64,000 nt of DNA, taken from Prorocentrum cordatum. Taxonomy: Eukaryota; Sar; Dinophyceae; Prorocentrales; Prorocentraceae. A program made the translations under genes and the position numbers. This document shows positions 23,026 to 51,515 of the stretch, one piece after another. Under the pieces are notes generated by a model, which saw only the letters and a program-made list of their open reading frames with translations, was not told the origin of the DNA and ran no database searches. Location: positions 130,001 through 194,000 of the forward strand of contig CAUYUJ010018038.1 in the NCBI GenBank assembly GCA_963575745.1, read 5' to 3'. The first letter of the stretch is position 1, and each line of letters begins with the position of its first letter.

Positions 23026-23144
23026 ATCCAAATGGGGTCCGAGCAGACGGGGTCGGAAGGTCGCATCGGCGATGCATCGGCGACGTCGGGATGGAGAAAG
23101 CTGGGGTCTGACGGCGAGCCCTGCGGCCAACGCGTCGGCGATAC
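23026..23144. mobile_element. MITE-like family 3, copy 1, left half (split by copia)
   Basis: It begins AATGGGGTCCGAGCAGACGG and contains GCATCGGCGATGCATCGGCG. Both match the terminal parts of the copies at 41513-41753 and 46581-46754. The other half resumes after the copia element at 30445. It abuts the end of another MITE (22856-23025). Confidence 0.75.
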
Positions 23145-23227
23145 TGATGAGATAGTATGTCGATGGACAAGATATCTCTTTTCCATCTTGAGCCAAAATG
23201 GGTGCACGGAGGAGGGTGTCAGAATCA
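23145..23227 (-). repeat. 3' LTR of the copia element (83 bp)
   Basis: Identical to the 5' LTR. It directly follows the polypurine tract in element orientation and is followed by the GATAC target duplication at 23140-23144. It also contains the DinoSL-like sequence (23210-23187, minus strand). Confidence 0.95.
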
Positions 23228-23240
23228 CTCCTCCTCGGGC
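23228..23240 (-). promoter_or_regulatory. Polypurine tract before the 3' LTR
   Basis: The minus strand reads GCCCGAGGAGGAG directly before the 3' LTR, giving a purine run GAGGAGGAG abutting the LTR, as needed for plus-strand priming. It is short, and similar purine runs are common in this window. Confidence 0.6.
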
Positions 23241-23426: not shown

Positions 23427-26400
23427 TCACTTGAAGTCCTTCTGAGTCAAACTCGGTGTCCGATCCCAGATGTTGAGCGTCGCCATGTGTCTCCTCAAAA
23501 GGGATCCACCCACGCTCTTGGTCAGCACGTCCGCGACATTGTTCTTACCAGGAACCGCGGCGATCGAGAGGTCGCCCTTACCCACGCGCTCCTGGATCCA
23601 CAAGTATCGTGATTGAACATGTCGCATCTTCCCGAGACCCCGCCGTTGGACGTGGCCCCGGGCCGCCGATGAATCCGAGGCGAGCTCTACCTTCAGGTCC
23701 AGCCCCCAGTCCGCGAAGAGGCTGTGAAGGCCCAGGCCCACGCCCCCGCCCTTCACCAGGGCGTAGTACTCGCTCTCTCCGCTGCTCAAAGAAACCGTCG
23801 ACTGCAGATTACTGCCATGCTTGACGACATGATGCCCCAGCATCGCCACGAAGCCTCCGGTGCTCTTCCGGGTGACTGCGCAGCCCGCATGATCGGAGTC
23901 CACGTACACCCGGATCTTGTCGAACATCTTCTGCTCCGTGAAAACCGTCACCGTGCTAGGATGCCGCTTGAGGTAGCGGCCAACCCTCTTGAGCATGAGC
24001 CAACTCGCCTCCGTTGGCGTCTGCATGGACCTAGCGAGCGTCTTCGATGCCTCTGCCAAGTCCAGCCTGTCCTGAGACAGGTAGGCCACCCTCATGGTGA
24101 GGGATCGGAAGCGCGAAGCTTCCGCTGCTCCCAACGCCGCCGACTTCGCATCCATCATCTGCTTGTCGGCGCTGCGCTTCTCCATCGGCGTGTCCACGCC
24201 GTTGGCCTTGCTGAGACCCAACTCGTCGATCACGATCTCCGCGCGCCGCTTGTCCGGCTCGATCATCGCATGCCGGCAGGGCCGGCCACCGCCAGGCGGA
24301 ACTCCCGCACTGACCTCGATGACCCGATTCAGGAAGACCGCCTGCTTGTCATCGCCCTCGTCGAAGCCTAGGTTCGCAGTCTTCTTGAACTCGTACTTCT
24401 TGCCCAGCGTGGCCTCGAAGCTGTCGATGTCCTGCTGCTGAGCCAGCACCGCGAAGTCGTCGCCGTGCCCCAGCAGCCTCGTCTCGTCCACCTCCTTGTA
24501 GAAGACCGCTGGGCACGACACGCCCGCCTTGTAGCCGTGTTCCTCCAGCAGCTCCGTGTAGTCGCCCTGCCAGATCTTGCTGGCGTCCTGCGTGCCGTAC
24601 CAGGACTTGAGGAGTAGGCCGCACTTGTCCTCGCCGTACTCCTTGCGACTCTCCTCCTCCAGCTCTACGAAGATCCTCCGCTGCGCCTTCCCGTAGAAGT
24701 GCGCCCTGCTGATGTCGAAGAAGCCGATCTTGAAGTTGCCCGGCTTCCTGCCCTTCTTGCGAAGCGACTCCTGAATGTGGAGCGGTGCTTCCCGCGTCCA
24801 CGTGACCATCAGCGAGACCAGCGACCGCATGGCCTCCAGAGGAGGCATGGCCGAGAAGACCTCGGACGCCTCCAGCTGCTCGTCGGGGCGCTTCTTCGCC
24901 TTGATCTCCTTCACGACGAGCCTGCTCCTGTAGTTGGGCCTCTCCGCGTCACCCTTGTTCGTGTCGACCCACTTGAGTGGGATGGGCGGACGCCCAGTCT
25001 CGGCGAAAGCCTGAGACCTCGGGACGATCTCGATCAGCTCCTGCTTCTTGACCCACTCGCGCTCGACCGCGCGAGCCTGGGCCACAAGGCCCGCCTCCAG
25101 GTAGCCGCCATTGACGTCGTCCCAGTAACTCGTCCAGTCCCCGGGCGGCACTGCCGCGTCCACAGGGACTGGGCCCGACTGCTGCACCTGGGCGGTGCTG
25201 AGCTCTCCCACGTCATCCAGCGTGTCCTTGAGCTCCTCCAGCACCGCCTCTACCAACTTCGGTGGATAGACCTTCGCGAACCGCGCGATGCCGCCCACGA
25301 GCGTGATGTGGCGATGCCATTCCGCGCGGCCGTCCACATTGCTGCAAGTGCCCTGCAGCCTCCGGGCTAAGCCTGGATGGTTGGTGACCCATCCGGTCTC
25401 CTTGCGCACGAACTCCTCCTGACCACTGCGTGGGTTCGTGAGCTTCATGCCCCACCGACACATGGGGCCTTTGACCGTGAAGACTCCTGGATGCGCGACC
25501 AGCTCCTTGACGATGTCCTCATTCCACGATCGCGCGCTCCAGGGATGCTCATGCAGGAAGTACCTGCCTGGCTTCCTGAGCTGACGCCAGTAGGCGTCGA
25601 CTGCCACCTTCAGGTGGTGTCTGGCCTCCTCCATCTCAGCCGCCTCCTGCTCATCGGTCCTGAACTTGGCGCTCAGGCCCCTCAGCAAGCTGAACTTCTC
25701 GCATGGAGGGGACCCCGTGAGCAGGATGGGATCCATCCGCTCCTGCTGCCTCTCGAGCTCCTTGACATCCTCGGGGCGCCGCAAGTCCCACGGCGCCCCG
25801 TCCTCCTTGAGTTCCTCCAGGTCCGCCGCGAAGCCCGGGCGCAGCTGAAATTCCGCTGCCCGAGCCGAGAACCGATGTGGCGAGTACACCTCGGCCACGT
25901 CCACGGCGCCCAGCTGCAACGCCGATAGGGCGATGCTGTCCACCTCTTCGTCGGCGATGTCCACGCCGGCGCTGGCCCAATGGCCACTGACCTGTTCGCG
26001 AACGAGCGGGAGCAGCTCCGCCTTCGCTCTCGTCAGCACTCCGAGCTCAACCAGCTCGATCGACGCCATATCGAGGGCGAGCACCCGCATGTGCCTCCCC
26101 TCACTGGCGTTCCACACGACTGCCACTCCAGCTGGCAGCTGAGGTCCTTCCGCTGGCGCCGGCTGCGCCGCGAGATCCTCCATGTCCACCGGTACCGGCA
26201 CGTCTGCCGGCTGTGGATCACCGCGCTCGAGGGCCTCCGGCACGTCATCCGGGGCCACCTCTGCCAAGCGCTTCAGCCGCGACCTGGCCGCGGTCATGTC
26301 GACATCCGCGGCGGCCTCTGCCGCTCGCGCCGCTCCCGAACTGGAGCTCGCTCCTCCTGAAGGAGCCGCCACGCCGAAGCCCGGTGCTACCGGCTGGCTC

Positions 26401-28274
26401 TCTCGCATGCGCGCCGCTGTGGCTGCCACGGCTGGCGCTGCTGCCGATCGGGCCGCGGCCGGCGCGGCCGATGCCGCTGCCGCCGCTGCCACCGGCTCGG
26501 TGATCCTCCGAGCCGTCTTCGGCGGAGGGGTCCCTGCCGCGGCCGCTGCCGCTGGTCGGACTCTGGCCTCTTGGCCCTGCCTCCGTTCTCGATACTGGCC
26601 GGTCCTTTCCCGGCCTGCCTCCTCCGCGTCCAGCGCTTCGAAGATCCTCTTGCTGCACACCGCGTTGCGCGCGTGGCCAGCCAGCACCCGGCCGTGCTTG
26701 GCGATCGAGACGCACCCTGGGCATCCCGGCGTTGCGCCCAGCCGCTCGACGTCCGCCTTGAGGACGTACATCCTCCTCGGCGCCTGCGGCTGCGGCGACA
26801 CCACCACAATTGGTGGCGGTCCGACCTCTCCAGGTCCGACGATGGCCCGCGGCGCGCTTGCCGCACGCGGAGCCACGTCCCACGGCAGGCCCTTCAGGCC
26901 ATCCCAGCCCGCCGTGATCCACTTCTCGCTCTGCGGCAGGCTGCGAAAGCCGACCGCCTTCTTCACGCCGTCGCTCGTGATGACCATCATCGAGCCGTCG
27001 CGCGGGTGGTGGCCGATGTAGCGAGCCTCCACCATCTGCTCCTCCAGCGCGTTCTTCCTCGCGCGCTCCCCGGCGAACCGCGCCATCAAGCGCTCGCCGA
27101 AGAGCGGGACCGGCTTCCTCCACTGCCGTCCCGTGAGCCGCTGGAGAGCGGTCTTGCCATCCTGGCCGCGCCGGTATCGGTTGATTACCGATGCGGCGTG
27201 CTCCGGCAGGTGCGCTAGCACCGGGTGCTTGTCCTCCACCTTGACGCCCAGCTTGGACTCCAGGTCCATCTTGAGCGCCCGCACCTGCTTCTTAATCTCG
27301 CGCACCGTGACCTCGATCTCCCCATTGGCCTGATGATCGGCCGGTGCCGACTCCTGGGGAATGGCCTCGAGGCCAGGAACCTCCTCCACCGCACGCCTCT
27401 TGACCAACAGGATCGCCGGCTCGCCGTCGGACTTGTTGACGATCTTCCTGTAGCCCAGGATCCGCAAGAAGCGTGCGAAGAACTTGATGGCGTAGGCGTC
27501 GTCGCCCTTCTTCTCCACGAATGTCGCTGCCATCATCTTCGAGCGCCGATCCCTAAGTACCAGCATCGGCATGGTGTCCGCGTCGTCCTGGCCCATGAAG
27601 GCGTAGTCGGACGAGACCACCGGCACCGCCGTCTCGTCGTCCTCCGGTGCGCGGAGATGCGGCTGGCCTTGGCCCTTTGCCGCAATACACACGCGACACC
27701 AGCTGCGATAAGTCGCGTGTCCCATCGCCTCGTGTTCGTCGATCTCCCTCTGAGAGGGCTCATGAGGTGCCTTCAGCACTCTCGGGCGAGCCTCCTCCTC
27801 GCCCTCGTCGGCCTGCTGTCCATCAGGAGCAGCTGGCAAAGCGTCGGCCGCAGCAGCTGCCGCTGGCTGAAAACCCGGCGGTCTCACGTCGGAAGGCCCC
27901 GACCCCGCCGCTGCCGCCCCCGCAGCCGATGCCGCCGGGGGCCGTGGTATTAAGTCCTCCAGTGGGCTTACGCCGAGGGCTGCCTCCTGGGGACTGTCTT
28001 CTCGAGGATCTCCAGCAGCTCCTCCTTCGACTTGCCGCTGAGGAGCTCCACTAGCTCGGACTTCGACTTCGCCGAAAGTCCCTCCTCGAGAGGAGCAACC
28101 GAGCCATGTTGGCCCTTCTTGAGGTAGAAGTTGTAGACGCCCTGCTCGCGATAGACCGGCAGCATCTGGTGCTTCGCCGCCTTCGCCTCCTTCTCGAGCA
28201 TGCCTACCACGCGCTTGCCGATTGGGCTCTTCTCGTGGAATATCCAGCCGCCATTGCGACCCAGGAATGAACAC
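23427..28274 (-). CDS. pol: Copia integrase / MTase-like / RT / RNase H polyprotein
   Basis: A 1615-aa open frame, uninterrupted. The first ~102 codons overlap gag-pr, and the frame is -1 relative to it, so expression probably needs a -1 ribosomal frameshift. I saw no textbook slippery heptamer in the overlap. Domains in order: integrase with zinc-binding residues H181, H186, C193, C196 and a D,D35E triad (D223, D283, E319); a second Cys/His cluster, C518-C521...H534...C540; an Ala-rich linker (570-660); a cytosine-methyltransferase-like segment (about 793-1015); reverse transcriptase (about 1070-1330) with motif A FFDIS (D1187) and motif C HGDDF (D1272, D1273) in place of the usual YVDD; and RNase H (about 1455-1590) with D1459, E1500, D1534 and D1582. 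It would copy the element RNA to DNA and integrate it. The first residues listed precede the frameshift and are probably not translated. Confidence 0.93.
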   Translation of the reverse strand: MFIPGSQWRLDIPREEPNRQARGRHAREGGEGGEAPDAAGLSRAGRLQLLPQEGPTWLGCSSRGGTFGEVEVRASGAPQRQVEGGAAGDPREDSPQEAALGVSPLEDLIPRPPAASAAGAAAAGSGPSDVRPPGFQPAAAAAADALPAAPDGQQADEGEEEARPRVLKAPHEPSQREIDEHEAMGHATYRSWCRVCIAAKGQGQPHLRAPEDDETAVPVVSSDYAFMGQDDADTMPMLVLRDRRSKMMAATFVEKKGDDAYAIKFFARFLRILGYRKIVNKSDGEPAILLVKRRAVEEVPGLEAIPQESAPADHQANGEIEVTVREIKKQVRALKMDLESKLGVKVEDKHPVLAHLPEHAASVINRYRRGQDGKTALQRLTGRQWRKPVPLFGERLMARFAGERARKNALEEQMVEARYIGHHPRDGSMMVITSDGVKKAVGFRSLPQSEKWITAGWDGLKGLPWDVAPRAASAPRAIVGPGEVGPPPIVVVSPQPQAPRRMYVLKADVERLGATPGCPGCVSIAKHGRVLAGHARNAVCSKRIFEALDAEEAGRERTGQYRERRQGQEARVRPAAAAAAGTPPPKTARRITEPVAAAAAASAAPAAARSAAAPAVAATAARMRESQPVAPGFGVAAPSGGASSSSGAARAAEAAADVDMTAARSRLKRLAEVAPDDVPEALERGDPQPADVPVPVDMEDLAAQPAPAEGPQLPAGVAVVWNASEGRHMRVLALDMASIELVELGVLTRAKAELLPLVREQVSGHWASAGVDIADEEVDSIALSALQLGAVDVAEVYSPHRFSARAAEFQLRPGFAADLEELKEDGAPWDLRRPEDVKELERQQERMDPILLTGSPPCEKFSLLRGLSAKFRTDEQEAAEMEEARHHLKVAVDAYWRQLRKPGRYFLHEHPWSARSWNEDIVKELVAHPGVFTVKGPMCRWGMKLTNPRSGQEEFVRKETGWVTNHPGLARRLQGTCSNVDGRAEWHRHITLVGGIARFAKVYPPKLVEAVLEELKDTLDDVGELSTAQVQQSGPVPVDAAVPPGDWTSYWDDVNGGYLEAGLVAQARAVEREWVKKQELIEIVPRSQAFAETGRPPIPLKWVDTNKGDAERPNYRSRLVVKEIKAKKRPDEQLEASEVFSAMPPLEAMRSLVSLMVTWTREAPLHIQESLRKKGRKPGNFKIGFFDISRAHFYGKAQRRIFVELEEESRKEYGEDKCGLLLKSWYGTQDASKIWQGDYTELLEEHGYKAGVSCPAVFYKEVDETRLLGHGDDFAVLAQQQDIDSFEATLGKKYEFKKTANLGFDEGDDKQAVFLNRVIEVSAGVPPGGGRPCRHAMIEPDKRRAEIVIDELGLSKANGVDTPMEKRSADKQMMDAKSAALGAAEASRFRSLTMRVAYLSQDRLDLAEASKTLARSMQTPTEASWLMLKRVGRYLKRHPSTVTVFTEQKMFDKIRVYVDSDHAGCAVTRKSTGGFVAMLGHHVVKHGSNLQSTVSLSSGESEYYALVKGGGVGLGLHSLFADWGLDLKVELASDSSAARGHVQRRGLGKMRHVQSRYLWIQERVGKGDLSIAAVPGKNNVADVLTKSVGGSLLRRHMATLNIWDRTPSLTQKDFK
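25230..25898 (-). other. Cytosine-methyltransferase-like domain within pol
   Basis: Residues about 793-1015 of the pol frame match no standard copia domain. They contain VAEVYSPHRF near the start, LLTGSPPCEKFS (G854-C858), YFLHEHPWSARSW (E909-P911) and a later MCRWGM block. C5 DNA methyltransferases have a SAM-binding start, a catalytic PC loop (motif IV) and an ENV loop (motif VI) in this order and at similar spacing. That fold is therefore a reasonable guess. Classic FxGxG and ENV motifs are absent or altered, so activity is uncertain. Cytosine methyltransferases captured by dinoflagellate copia elements have been reported. Whether this is that family, a decayed copy or something unrelated needs a profile search. 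Confidence 0.55.
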
Positions 28275-29914
28275 TGTCCAGCTCCTGCTGCCTGCCCCAC
28301 CGAGATCAACGGCTTGTGCACGTTCGTCGCGCGTCCCTTGAGTGCTCGTAGCACTCCGTACTCGTCCTCCGCCTTGAGCTGCAAGCTGCCCTCGTCCGGG
28401 ACGAGCTCACCACTGGCCGTACGATACGTGCTGCCGTTGCCGTTCATTCCCGTCGGCGGCGCGAAGCTCCGAGGGAATGCTGAGATAGCTGCACCGCTGT
28501 CCCAGTTGAACTTCATCCAGTCGTCCTGCGCGAAGGGGGAGAGGTCGACCGCCGCTATGCCGCGGCCGCTGCCGCTGGCGAGCTCCAGGCAGTCCAAGCT
28601 GCCCATGTCCAGAGCGGCGACCTCCGCTTCAGGCTCCTCCTCCAGGCTGCCTGCCGCCTTGCCGCCGGCCTTGCCGCCGCGGCTACCGACTTTACCACCA
28701 GCGCTTGCCCCCGTTGCGGATCCAGTTCCAGCCCTCGTACTCGATCCCTGCTCTTTCCTCCAGCAGTCGGATGCCTTGTGGCCCCATCTCTCGCAGTTCC
28801 GACAGTAGCCGTCGAAGCGCCCGCTGGTGCTTCGAGGTGCCGTGTGCCCTGAACCACGGCCCGAACCCGTCGGGGATGTGCGGGAGCCTGAGTATGATCC
28901 GTTCGTCGATTTGCTCTTCCCCTTCGGCTCCTGAGTCTTGCCTTTCCCTTTGCTCTTGCCGTCCTTGCCCTTGCCTTTGCCTTTGCCTTTCGGGGCTCCG
29001 AACGATCCGACGTCCATGTCGTCCGGATGATGCGCCCGCGCACGGATCGATGGCTCCTTGATCTTCACGCCGGTCCGAGCCTCTACGATCGTCATTACCT
29101 CGTTCAGACTGTCCTGGAACGTTACGAGCCGATGCTTGTTGAGTACGAGGTGGTTCTCGATGTCCTGAGGCACGAGCATCTCGAGGGCCGCCATCTTGAT
29201 ATCCTCCGGCAGCTCGGCCAGACCATCTTCTCCTTGGCGGCGTTCGTACCTGCCTATCTGCTGGATCCACTTCTCTAAGGCGGACCCCAGCTCGTCCGCG
29301 CTGCACTTCGGAGGCGAGATGATCGACCTCAGGATCAGCCTCTTCCTCGGGCCTGTCGTCGGATCCCACCTGCGGTGGAGCTTCCGCCAGGCTTCGAGAC
29401 CGTTCCCGTCGGGGGCGCCCGTCACGAGGTCGTTGCTCTCGCTGCCGTCCGCCGTCGTGCTGATCAGCGCCGCGTACAGCTGGTTGACCTTGGTCTCCAG
29501 CTCTGGAACTCCGTCGTGCACCGCCCGAGCTCCCTCGATCGTCACGGGGCGTTCGGCTTCGGCTGCCCACCGAAGAACAGGGCGAAAACTCTCTCCGTAC
29601 ACGCCGATCACGTAGTTCTCCATCTTGCGATTCCAGGCGCCGAACTTCTCTTGGTCGTCGCCCAGCGTCGTGGGCTTGCCGATCCCCTTGGTGTCTACGA
29701 GACCTTGAACGGCTCCACCCGCGCTCGTCGCGCCTCTGATCTGCTCGCCCATCCGCTCGATCGCCTGCGGGATTGCCGCGAGGCCTCCTGCCACCTGCTG
29801 CTGAAGACGCTGATTCTCGTTCTCCAGCCTCCTCATCTCGTCGGCTGCCTGACCTATTTGAGCCGCGAACTCCTGCCTCAGCAGTTCGAACTGATGCCGA
29901 ACCTGCTCGTCCAT
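27968..29914 (-). CDS. gag-pr: Copia Gag-protease polyprotein
   Basis: A 648-aa ORF. The N-terminus (about residues 1-45) is predicted coiled coil, with heptad-like Leu and many Glu/Arg/Gln, followed by a Gag-like helical region to about 300. Lys/Gly/Ser-rich linkers surround a CCHC zinc knuckle (CRNCERWGHKASDC, about residue 370), the RNA-binding motif of retroelement nucleocapsids. A retropepsin-type aspartic protease follows, with catalytic D472 in FNWDSGAA. Gag packages the element RNA; the protease would process the polyproteins. The ORF ends at TAA (27968-27970) and overlaps the pol ORF by about 300 nt in another frame. The ATG at 29914 is used, but the frame upstream (30098 to about 29925, +1 relative to this) also reads as a charged coiled-coil sequence. 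A longer N-terminus through a frameshift, or a small intron, is therefore possible. Confidence 0.9.
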   Translation of the reverse strand: MDEQVRHQFELLRQEFAAQIGQAADEMRRLENENQRLQQQVAGGLAAIPQAIERMGEQIRGATSAGGAVQGLVDTKGIGKPTTLGDDQEKFGAWNRKMENYVIGVYGESFRPVLRWAAEAERPVTIEGARAVHDGVPELETKVNQLYAALISTTADGSESNDLVTGAPDGNGLEAWRKLHRRWDPTTGPRKRLILRSIISPPKCSADELGSALEKWIQQIGRYERRQGEDGLAELPEDIKMAALEMLVPQDIENHLVLNKHRLVTFQDSLNEVMTIVEARTGVKIKEPSIRARAHHPDDMDVGSFGAPKGKGKGKGKDGKSKGKGKTQEPKGKSKSTNGSYSGSRTSPTGSGRGSGHTAPRSTSGRFDGYCRNCERWGHKASDCWRKEQGSSTRAGTGSATGASAGGKVGSRGGKAGGKAAGSLEEEPEAEVAALDMGSLDCLELASGSGRGIAAVDLSPFAQDDWMKFNWDSGAAISAFPRSFAPPTGMNGNGSTYRTASGELVPDEGSLQLKAEDEYGVLRALKGRATNVHKPLISVGQAAGAGQCSFLGRNGGWIFHEKSPIGKRVVGMLEKEAKAAKHQMLPVYREQGVYNFYLKKGQHGSVAPLEEGLSAKSKSELVELLSGKSKEELLEILEKTVPRRQPSA

Positions 29915-30347
29915 GTTTGACAGCGTGTCTCTCGGCGAGCTCCTCCCGGCTCTCCGCTATCTCTTGCCTCGTGCGTTCGAGGTCCGTAATCCGGCCTAGG
30001 ACTTCCTTCTGCGTTCTCTCAACAGCGTCCGATGAGTTCTCCGACGGGTGGTCCTCGATGTACGCGAGGTGGTGAAGTTTGTTGCCCGTCTCCCTCAAGT
30101 CGTGCTTGAACTGGAGCTGCTTGCGCCTGGTCTCGATCGCCTCGTCGCTCCTCTTGCCGCGCCTGCGGCCACTCTTCCCGGCCCCTGCCGGTTGACTCCT
30201 CCCGGCCCCTGCCGGTTGCTCGGCCGCTGCCGAGCTCGGTGCGGCCGATGCCGCCCTCTTCCAGCCTCGAGCCTCTTGCCAGCTCGCCGTGGCGCCCGCG
30301 GGCGCGGCGCGCCGAGGCCTTGGTGGGGTCGGCAGCAGTGAGTGGCC

Positions 30348-30361
30348 AGCTCACGCTACCA
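30348..30361 (-). promoter_or_regulatory. Primer-binding site (tRNA-iMet-like)
   Basis: Directly after the 5' LTR, with no spacer, the minus strand reads TGGTAGCGTGAGCT. TGG is the complement of the CCA tail of a tRNA. TGGTAGC is what a 3' end of the GCTACCA type, as in animal initiator tRNA-Met, would prime. The match beyond seven bases is not convincing without the host tRNA set. Confidence 0.6.
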
Positions 30362-30444
30362 TGATGAGATAGTATGTCGATGGACAAGATATCTCTTTTC
30401 CATCTTGAGCCAAAATGGGTGCACGGAGGAGGGTGTCAGAATCA
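30362..30444 (-). repeat. 5' LTR of the copia element (83 bp)
   Basis: Identical over 83 of 83 positions to the LTR at 23145-23227, with TG...CA ends. Read on the minus strand it has 17 nt, then a 24-nt DinoSL-like segment (30427-30404), then about 42 nt starting ATGGAAAAGAG and ending CATCA. The 17 nt before the SL-like segment leaves almost no room for a U3 promoter. This suggests that transcription starts elsewhere or that the RNA 5' end is made by trans-splicing (inference). Confidence 0.95.
30404..30427 (-). promoter_or_regulatory. DinoSL-like sequence inside the 5' LTR
   Basis: On the minus strand the LTR reads TCCGT, a 4-nt GCAC, then CCATTTTGGCTCAAG. The last 15 nt match the 3' 15 nt of the dinoflagellate spliced leader exactly, and the first 5 match its 5' end (D = T). 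Only the two-nucleotide AG between them is replaced, by GCAC. The next bases are ATGGAAAAG. The same block is in the other LTR at 23187-23210. The leader sequence is quoted from general knowledge of dinoflagellate mRNA. Confidence 0.8.
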
Positions 30445-30496
30445 GATACGGCGCGATCCACCGACCCCACCTGCGCCGCTCCCCTCTGGTCGGCCT
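30445..30496. mobile_element. MITE-like family 3, copy 1, right half
   Basis: Starts with the GATAC duplication and continues GGCGCGATCCACCGACCCCA, matching the right terminus of the intact copy at 41513-41753 (GGCGCGATCCGCCGACCCCG). Joining the halves at GATAC restores the expected ...TCGGCGATACGGCGCGATC... layout. Confidence 0.75.
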
Positions 30497-35590: not shown

Positions 35591-35612
35591 CTTGAGCCAA
35601 ACTGGCTACGGA
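35591..35612 (-). other. Relict dinoflagellate spliced leader (21/22 nt)
   Basis: The minus strand reads TCCGTAGCCA, then G, then TTTGGCTCAAG. This is the 22-nt DinoSL with a single T-to-G change. Genomic SL sequence joined to coding sequence is the known mark of a trans-spliced mRNA that was reverse-transcribed and reinserted. A GGA microsatellite begins just upstream (35619). Confidence 0.85.
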
Positions 35613-50800: not shown

Positions 50801-51515
50801 CGCCGCGGCGGCGGCCCCGCCTCGCGGCGGCGGCATCGTCGGGGGCGCCAGTCCACATCAGCGCATCGCGCGGCGGCCGGCGCGGGCTCCCGGTGGCCGC
50901 GCCCGAGCCAGGCGCAGCTCGTGGGCCGCCGTCGGCGTGCCCGCCGTCGCCGTCGGAAGCCACTCCTGCGAGAGCGTCATCAGGACATGCTCGTGGGGAT
51001 AGGAATCGGTTAAGCAGTGCCCAACATGGGGCCCCCTTCCTTCCGTAGCTGCCATGTTGGCTCAAGTCAACTACAAATACGGTTCGGCCCGAGCCCCGAG
51101 GGTGGGCAACATTCCACGCAATCGCATTTTTCGAATGTTCCTGCATATGTTCATTTCAGCGTGTCAGATGTCATGGGACTCGCAGTGCAGCCCGATGAAG
51201 AGGCCACTGAGCTGCCATCAGGCCAGATCAAGCCGCAGACTGAGCTGGACGAGGCGGGATGATGCGTGGTAAAACCAGGCACTGAGCGGAACTCGAGCAG
51301 ATCAAGCCAATTCTCGACCAAAGATATACCAGCGCCTATTCAGAATTATTTCACCTCCCGTGAGTTGCAACCTGATCGGCGTGCTGGCCGCCACCGCCTT
51401 CGTAGAGCGAGGAGGAGGATCCTGAGATCCATGACCCCTCGCGTCGTGGGAAAGAGCACGACGGGCCCTGAAATCCTGGCGTCCGAATTTCTTCAAGCTG
51501 GACGTGTTCGCCCGA
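50801..51515. other. Unassigned sequence
   Basis: No gene recognised. Confidence 0.35.

Follow-up and report, generated by a model that had tools for sequence, protein, structure and literature searches.

Ty1/copia LTR retrotransposons are known in dinoflagellates from Oxyrrhis (PMC3942190) and, as cited in PMC11453091, from Symbiodinium; the available text of these sources describes no leader within an LTR. The spliced leader of these hosts, DinoSL, is printed as DCCGTAGCCATTTTGGCTCAAG in the accessible parts of PMC7245778 and PMC12014239. According to the available text, DinoSL-tagged retrogenes (Slamovits and Keeling 2008, as described in PMC12014239 and PMC6050394) have the leader fixed in DNA by reverse transcription and are trans-spliced again; addition of a new leader costs the old copy its first seven bases, as far as the internal AG (PMC12014239). 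In the peridinin-chlorophyll a-protein gene, the RNA 5' end matches the leader at 21/22 positions, which its authors, in the text available, read as trans-splicing exactly at the identical sequence or as a start or truncation there (Bachvaroff and Place 2008, PMC2488372). Cer1 of C. elegans is a Gypsy/Ty3-related LTR retrotransposon with RNAs that take SL1; in the accessible account, a spliced 2.4-kb RNA occurs with and without SL1 and the SL1 site of the full-length 8-kb RNA is not used for trans-splicing (PMC3315495).

Each of these systems resembles the locus described here in some respects and departs from it in others. The window, by which we mean the whole stretch of 64,000 nucleotides that was analysed, comes from Prorocentrum cordatum, a red-tide alga, and contains an element that is of Ty1/copia type by structure, with paired LTRs (TG...CA), a short TSD, RVT_2, a PBS, and a PPT (Table 1). 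It shares these features, including the 5-bp TSD, with the described dinoflagellate Ty1/copia elements, but its R appears to start with the host leader. As in the DinoSL retrogenes, whose described relic is an identical 15 nt, CCATTTTGGCTCAAG is present; however, retrogene relics lie next to a processed host gene, are described as taking the splice at their internal AG, and build up tandem arrays, whereas here the leader is part of an LTR, duplicated at the two ends of an element that looks autonomous, and hardly ever has the internal AG. On neither count does the window element itself look like a relic retrogene, as the leader lies within both of its LTRs and lacks the internal AG. With the peridinin-chlorophyll a-protein gene it would share a genomic leader copy exactly at the RNA start, although that case, as far as it is described, concerns a host gene, one end only, and no strand-transfer role. 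Cer1 is likewise an LTR element able to take a spliced leader, but is Gypsy/Ty3-related, and the accessible text mentions no leader in its LTR. No description of a leader inside an LTR was found in the accessible open-access literature, subscription papers and preprints lying mostly outside the search. Strand transfer works only between identical RNA ends, which is why an LTR element normally carries both copies of R itself. In hosts where most mRNAs are trans-spliced, the RNA 5' end is replaced, and LTR elements should therefore fail there unless the LTR matches the leader. The DNA of LTRs of the window type looks like a solution to this replacement of the 5' end, reached in several families.

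Table 1. Features of the Ty1/copia-type element, in positions of the window.
Feature	Position	Strand	Remarks
5' LTR, 83 bp, TG...CA	30362..30444	minus	83/83 (100%) identical to 3' LTR; TSD and PBS adjoin
3' LTR, 83 bp	23145..23227	minus	100% identical to 5' LTR
TSD GTATC, 5 bp, 5' side	30445..30449	minus	read from sequence
TSD GTATC, 5 bp, 3' side	23140..23144	minus	read from sequence
LTR start TGATTCTGAC	30435..30444	minus	contains CTGAC
DinoSL block of 5' LTR, TCCGT-GCAC-CCATTTTGGCTCAAG	30404..30427	minus	putative acceptor
DinoSL block of 3' LTR, same 24 nt	23187..23210	minus	putative R, putative role in strand transfer
PBS TGGTAGCGTGAGC	30349..30361	minus	directly 3' of 5' LTR
gag with CCHC knuckle and protease-like region	27968..29914	minus	begins at first ATG after 447-nt ATG-free leader
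pol frame: integrase-like region, RVT_2, RNase H	23427..28406	minus	integrase and RNase H by eye
Polypurine tract GAGGAGGAG	23228..23236	minus	adjoins 3' LTR on its upstream side

The coding part of the element is that of a copia retrotransposon with close relatives in the same alga. Pfam recognised RVT_2 in the pol frame (E 4.1e-12, 46.6 bits vs a cut-off of 31.6) and named no integrase, although an HHCC-like stretch can be seen by eye upstream of RT in the same frame. The gag motifs were also assigned by eye, Pfam naming none in that frame; the P. cordatum protein P0001 begins with MDEQVRQQF, a peptide related to the start of the window gag. Among 194 related proteins, the best 20 are all from P. 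cordatum and 90-100% identical over the aligned part, and the first three (including P0001 and P0002) are 98% identical across the entire queried RT-RNase H part. Those relatives listed under a name are dinoflagellate, most entries carrying none. Protein readings running through the LTR were found neither among the 120 relatives listed nor in a second search, and the same 120 proteins used as queries revealed no further copia fragments in the window at E 1e-5. No copia relatives were confirmed in IMG/VR. An apparent SHFGSR leader peptide in protein P0106 was dropped, as its relatives align there without a leader-like stretch. The PBS would pair with the 3' end of an initiator-like tRNA, a putative match based on general tRNA features, and CTGAC at the LTR start is a possible branch point, judged against the branch consensus; tRNA genes and Rfam families were not found in the window. 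The ATG directly 3' of the DinoSL block opens a 15-codon uORF in the 5' leader of the element (window 29914-30403), and a second ATG lies at the LTR/PBS junction, after which no ATG occurs until gag. ATG-free windows of this length (447 nt) make up 2% on the element strand.

The minus strand at 30404-30427 reads TCCGTGCACCCATTTTGGCTCAAG and is followed by ATGG. Compared with DinoSL, 20/22 bases are present and the internal AG is changed to GCAC, with exactly 17 LTR bases upstream of the block; the position, the 20/22 count, GCAC, the 17 bases, and the adjoining ATGG are as the preliminary description had stated for the 83-bp LTRs. With the internal AG gone, no AG of the LTR comes before the last two leader bases (30405-30404), and this position makes the terminal AG the natural candidate for an acceptor, as had been proposed. 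Of the TG-starting stretches on the element strand, 14% likewise have no AG before base 40, and this feature alone is thus not rare; the 30 bases before the terminal AG are more pyrimidine-rich than those before approximately 97% of AGs on the same strand. At no more than two mismatches, CCATTTTGGCTCAAG occurs 5 times in the window vs 0.16 expected, a number reached by 0/100 shuffles, and its exact expectation in an 83-mer of LTR composition is 3.6e-8. Throughout the 4.13-Gb assembly, the exact 15-mer is present 23,175 times (11,634 + 11,541) vs 3 + 0 for the reversed control, which is the expected picture in an alga whose genome abounds in DinoSL-tagged retrocopies; from this count, the probability of finding it on one particular strand of a random 83-bp stretch works out at about 2e-4. 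The window has two more DinoSL relics outside the LTRs (35591-35611, minus, and 51043-51066, plus); one matches over the full length with a single mismatch, and the other has a 3-nt insertion and a mismatch. The last 15 nt of the leader and ATGG can fold as CCAUUUUG-GCU-CAAGAUGG (window 30362-30444), an 8-bp hairpin that would form most of R; the z of the LTR fold is -2.3.

We propose that this is probably a Ty1/copia LTR retrotransposon whose R is built from the host spliced leader and whose RNA is trans-spliced at the terminal AG. Transcription of the element would enter from upstream or begin close by, and host SL RNA would be trans-spliced at the first AG of the LTR (CAAG^ATGG), joining the SL to ATGGAAAAG. 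The 5' end of the genomic RNA would then be host DinoSL, i.e., the host would supply the 5' copy of R. The 3' end would be made at the A-run just past the leader block of the 3' LTR, and the RNA would also end with the LTR-encoded leader copy, the 3' copy of R. A candidate for this polyadenylation site is AAAAG, 4 nt 3' of the leader at 30395..30399 (minus), with the copy that would be used at 23178-23182 in the 3' LTR; it resembles the AAAAG/C site for which the available text gives 3-5 adenines, often followed by G or C (Bachvaroff and Place, PMC2488372). First-strand DNA from the PBS would copy the host leader and jump to the 3' leader copy by complementarity, and a trans-spliced LTR element would therefore have to encode the leader in its LTR. 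Without the internal AG, splicing would stay at the terminal AG and tandem leaders could not pile up.

The jump would often precede the 5' end of the leader, leaving only its 3' part normally host-derived, and longer runs or a different acceptor would yield restored bases or partial tandem leaders. A reverse transcriptase that stopped near base 8 would renew about as much as the 15 leader bases present in these LTRs. In full-length reads of P. glacialis, as far as that source is available, approximately 70% of leader-type transcripts start at leader base 2 or 8, a pattern that its authors tentatively attribute to the binding of methylated cytosines at these positions during cap selection (PMC7245778). 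It counts against this proposal that one and the same acceptor would have to be active in the 5' LTR but left unused in the 3' LTR; Cer1 also offers, in the text available, the counterexample of an 8-kb RNA that escapes trans-splicing (PMC3315495).

Copies of the element were collected and their LTRs aligned, as the preliminary description had suggested. The family search held U3 TTCTGACA and part of U5 fixed with 22-42 bases free between them, and returned 72 LTRs genome-wide (control 0), LTRs that differ in the fixed parts being missed. As the leader region was left free and the block nevertheless recurs in 72/72, it is a feature of this family (family A). Leader bases 10-22 are intact in 71, the sole break (in C6427) being one substitution private to one LTR of its element; base 9 is T instead of C in 20/72. 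Before ATTTTGG, the LTRs read GTGCACCC (26), GTGTACCC (23), GTGTACCT (11), GTGCACCT (9), or GTGTAGCC (3). The last seven leader bases are doubled (GCTCAAGGCTCAAG) in 4/72 LTRs, which belong to 2 elements. Thirty LTRs read with their flanks include 11 two-LTR copies apart from the window element; 10 have clear 5-bp TSDs and the eleventh sits in a CT repeat. Among the 18 copies first compared, identity across 1.6 kb of 5' internal sequence is 84-100%, which suggests a fairly young family. U3 before the leader measures 17-26 nt.

The loss of the internal AG matters, a point that the preliminary description had missed. An AG at the DinoSL place is present in only 3/72 family A LTRs and in 3/168 of the leader-plus-PBS places described below, and an AG-free run of at least 22 nt precedes the terminal AG in 17/18 hand-chosen representatives, the exception being C13211 (family J) with another AG 14 nt before it. 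In a relic sample from one contig, AG stands at the DinoSL place in 21/29 contexts, one of the 29 being a family A LTR; thirteen of these 21 read exactly TCCGTAG and five owe the AG to the preceding unit of a tandem leader. The replacement takes the form GTGCAC/GTGTAC in families A and B, GTGCGC in C, GTGTAC in E, CGTCGCC in D and I, and CCGCAACC in G; in family I, CGTCGCC is the only change in 21. The change in E may have a common origin with that in A-C, and the one in D with that in I; counted in this way, these sequences represent at least three kinds of AG loss. One family B copy (C2547:510191) has the AG, and the two other copies of that family that were read have GTGTACCTATTTT. That copies differ in having GCAC, GTAC, or GTAGCC speaks against a variant host SL RNA as the source of GCAC.

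Other LTR families carry the leader as well. A pattern joining the last 12 leader bases, a spacer of 6-66, and CATGGTAGCG (LTR end CA and PBS) matched 78 + 90 = 168 places genome-wide, and its control matched 0; random co-occurrence would give one or two, by arithmetic that assigns the 12-mer roughly the frequency of the 15-mer. The leader is built into the pattern, and the 168 places are therefore no measure of how many families carry it. Judged by spacers among the approximately 100 places listed, A, B, and C share U3, D, E, F, and G are unlike, and H-K comprise one locus each; 18 representatives were chosen by hand and fetched. Whether further copia families share the block had been raised in the preliminary description, and two do so with paired LTRs and TSDs of their own, in addition to family A. 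Family D (C3205) has identical 160-bp LTRs, TSD ACGTA, and a copia pol (E 3e-65); family E (C9669) has LTRs that are 93.6% identical, TSD CAGCG, and a copia pol (E 2e-44), with one substitution in the leader 12-mer of its 3' LTR. The description of U3 as almost absent fits family A but does not extend to families D and E, in which approximately 90 nt precede the leader. Families F to K were assigned from leader, CA, and PBS alone, and singletons among them could be chance matches; in F, H, and K the 5' part of the leader is little or not kept. All 18 representatives (18/18) have an A-run of at least 3 directly after the leader. The same leader-spacer-PBS stretch occurs twice on one strand of contig C1126 (71268 and 73822), 2.55 kb apart and with a PBS in each, as a tandem duplication or a nested short element.

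An approach that started from RT gave 8,854 first-look RVT_2 candidates, of which 150 were scored; ten hand-picked stretches reaching 1.5 kb downstream were analysed. A leader match of 11/12 on the element strand was found in 2/10, and the best match in the other eight was 8-10 of 12, the two at 10 apparently lying in coding sequence. For comparison, the opposite strand gave 8-9 of 12 and reversed controls 7-9. These ten stretches were anchored on RT rather than on located LTRs, and leaderless families may exist. The number of first-look candidates makes the copia load of this genome look very high. Three RVT_2 hits of equal score lie approximately 24.3 kb apart on one contig (C19562:103816, 128122, and 152479), which points to a large tandem repeat carrying a retroelement or to an assembly effect.

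Close copies of family A differ at the leader in ways that resemble the host sequence. Across approximately 1.6 kb of 5' internal sequence, C16567, which has the tandem 7-mer, is 99.4% identical to C295 without it, and C18719, which also has it, is 99.8% identical to the tandem-free C13446. The two tandem copies are only 91.4% identical to each other and each is closer to a tandem-free copy; therefore, the 7-base tandem arose twice. This tandem fits the use of the TG before GCTCAAG as an acceptor, although it could also have arisen by slippage; TG is suggested as a non-canonical acceptor for DinoSL retrogenes in the accessible text of PMC12014239. Leader base 9 is T in C13446 and the host C in C18719. 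Similarly, C15808 has the internal AG and is 99.8-99.9% identical to C1559, C6427, and C15768, all of which lack it; C15545, with the internal AG and the same flank as C15808, is probably the same insertion.

A tree was built from 33 of the 38 copies examined, five with only a 3' or solo LTR being omitted. On this tree, column 28 (leader base 9; C in 24, T in 9) requires 6 steps, and the other six variable LTR columns require 1, 1, 1, 1, 1, and 2; of 172 informative ungapped two-state internal sites, 170 require 1-3 steps, one 5, and one 6. Since T is the state of four copies close to the midpoint root, one most parsimonious history would have this base revert from T to the host C six times; the homoplasy could also stem from recombination or recurrent mutation. 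The differences between close copies support the view that the host leader is sometimes copied back into the LTR. The pattern would fit a partial and occasional renewal, mostly of the 3' part and now and then further 5'. This narrows the self-renewing LTR of the preliminary description: occasional, partial renewal agrees with the close copies, but complete renewal every cycle is excluded, because in many elements the two LTRs alike have inherited GCAC/GTAC and the T at base 9.

The main rival is that the block serves as a core promoter, a TTTT box for a dinoflagellate TBP-like factor, with the start downstream and leader identity not needed; LTRs would have acquired this promoter by capturing a leader relic. 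TTTT(G) in DinoSL relics has been proposed as a retrogene promoter in the accessible parts of PMC6050394 and PMC12014239, an affinity of TLF for TTTT is cited in those of PMC5029490, and TTTT is kept in 71/72 family A LTRs. However, the available text of PMC5029490 also reports TTTT as absent from the upstream regions of 6 genes, and the GGCTCAAG part of the block, with no obvious promoter use, is equally invariant in the 72. A promoter alone also leaves the rarity of AG, the A-run after the leader, and the tandems that end exactly at the end of the leader without explanation. We regard it as unlikely as a replacement for trans-splicing at the terminal AG, and it may hold in addition to it.

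It is very improbable that the block acts only in strand transfer of RNAs spliced at another AG, or as a leader mimic for translation or packaging. Complementarity would work for any reverse-transcribed SL-capped RNA, and splicing upstream would also give leader-derived sequence. Such splicing would nevertheless leave U3 and a second leader and often build tandems, which are limited to the 7-nt doubling in two family A elements, and the window LTR has no earlier AG. That the block is a chance match or a one-off capture of a DinoSL relic by an ancestral LTR, carried without function, is hardly credible: relics are very common (the 23,175 exact 15-mers) and the 83-bp family seems fairly young, but several unlike LTR families carry the block between U3 and an A-run near the LTR end, the 3' part of the leader is intact, AG is nearly always lost, and changes recur at leader positions.

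If an R built from the host leader and trans-spliced at its terminal AG is extended beyond these families, many dinoflagellate LTR retrotransposons may need no promoter or R of their own, with AG lost repeatedly so that the splice stays in register, and with the host leader occasionally copied back, a single host RNA thus editing many families at one and the same site, a wider reading in which we place somewhat less than even confidence. The leader block provides a sequence handle for annotating dinoflagellate LTR elements, and the elements are a possible source of the reverse transcription behind DinoSL-tagged retrogenes.

DinoSL sequences were also encountered in other settings. A scan of GTDB contigs with the 15-mer gave at least 116 stretches that look like chance hits in prokaryotes and were set aside. 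The same scan of IMG/VR gave 37 stretches, of which only L001 was judged by context to bear DinoSL. L001:1936-2914 (minus) is part of an AT-rich (22% G+C), giant-virus-like contig with a glycosyltransferase 41 gene; it holds two full DinoSL copies at a distance of 147 bp from each other, and after the second comes a 254-aa ORF in seemingly G+C-richer sequence. A trans-spliced mRNA of a dinoflagellate may here have been copied into the genome of a virus. On contig C1 of P. cordatum (L154-L183), many DinoSL relics lie directly 3' of (TCC)n or (GGA)n microsatellites, e.g., ...cctcctcctccgtag-CCATTTTGG, and retrocopies may land in or grow from such repeats.
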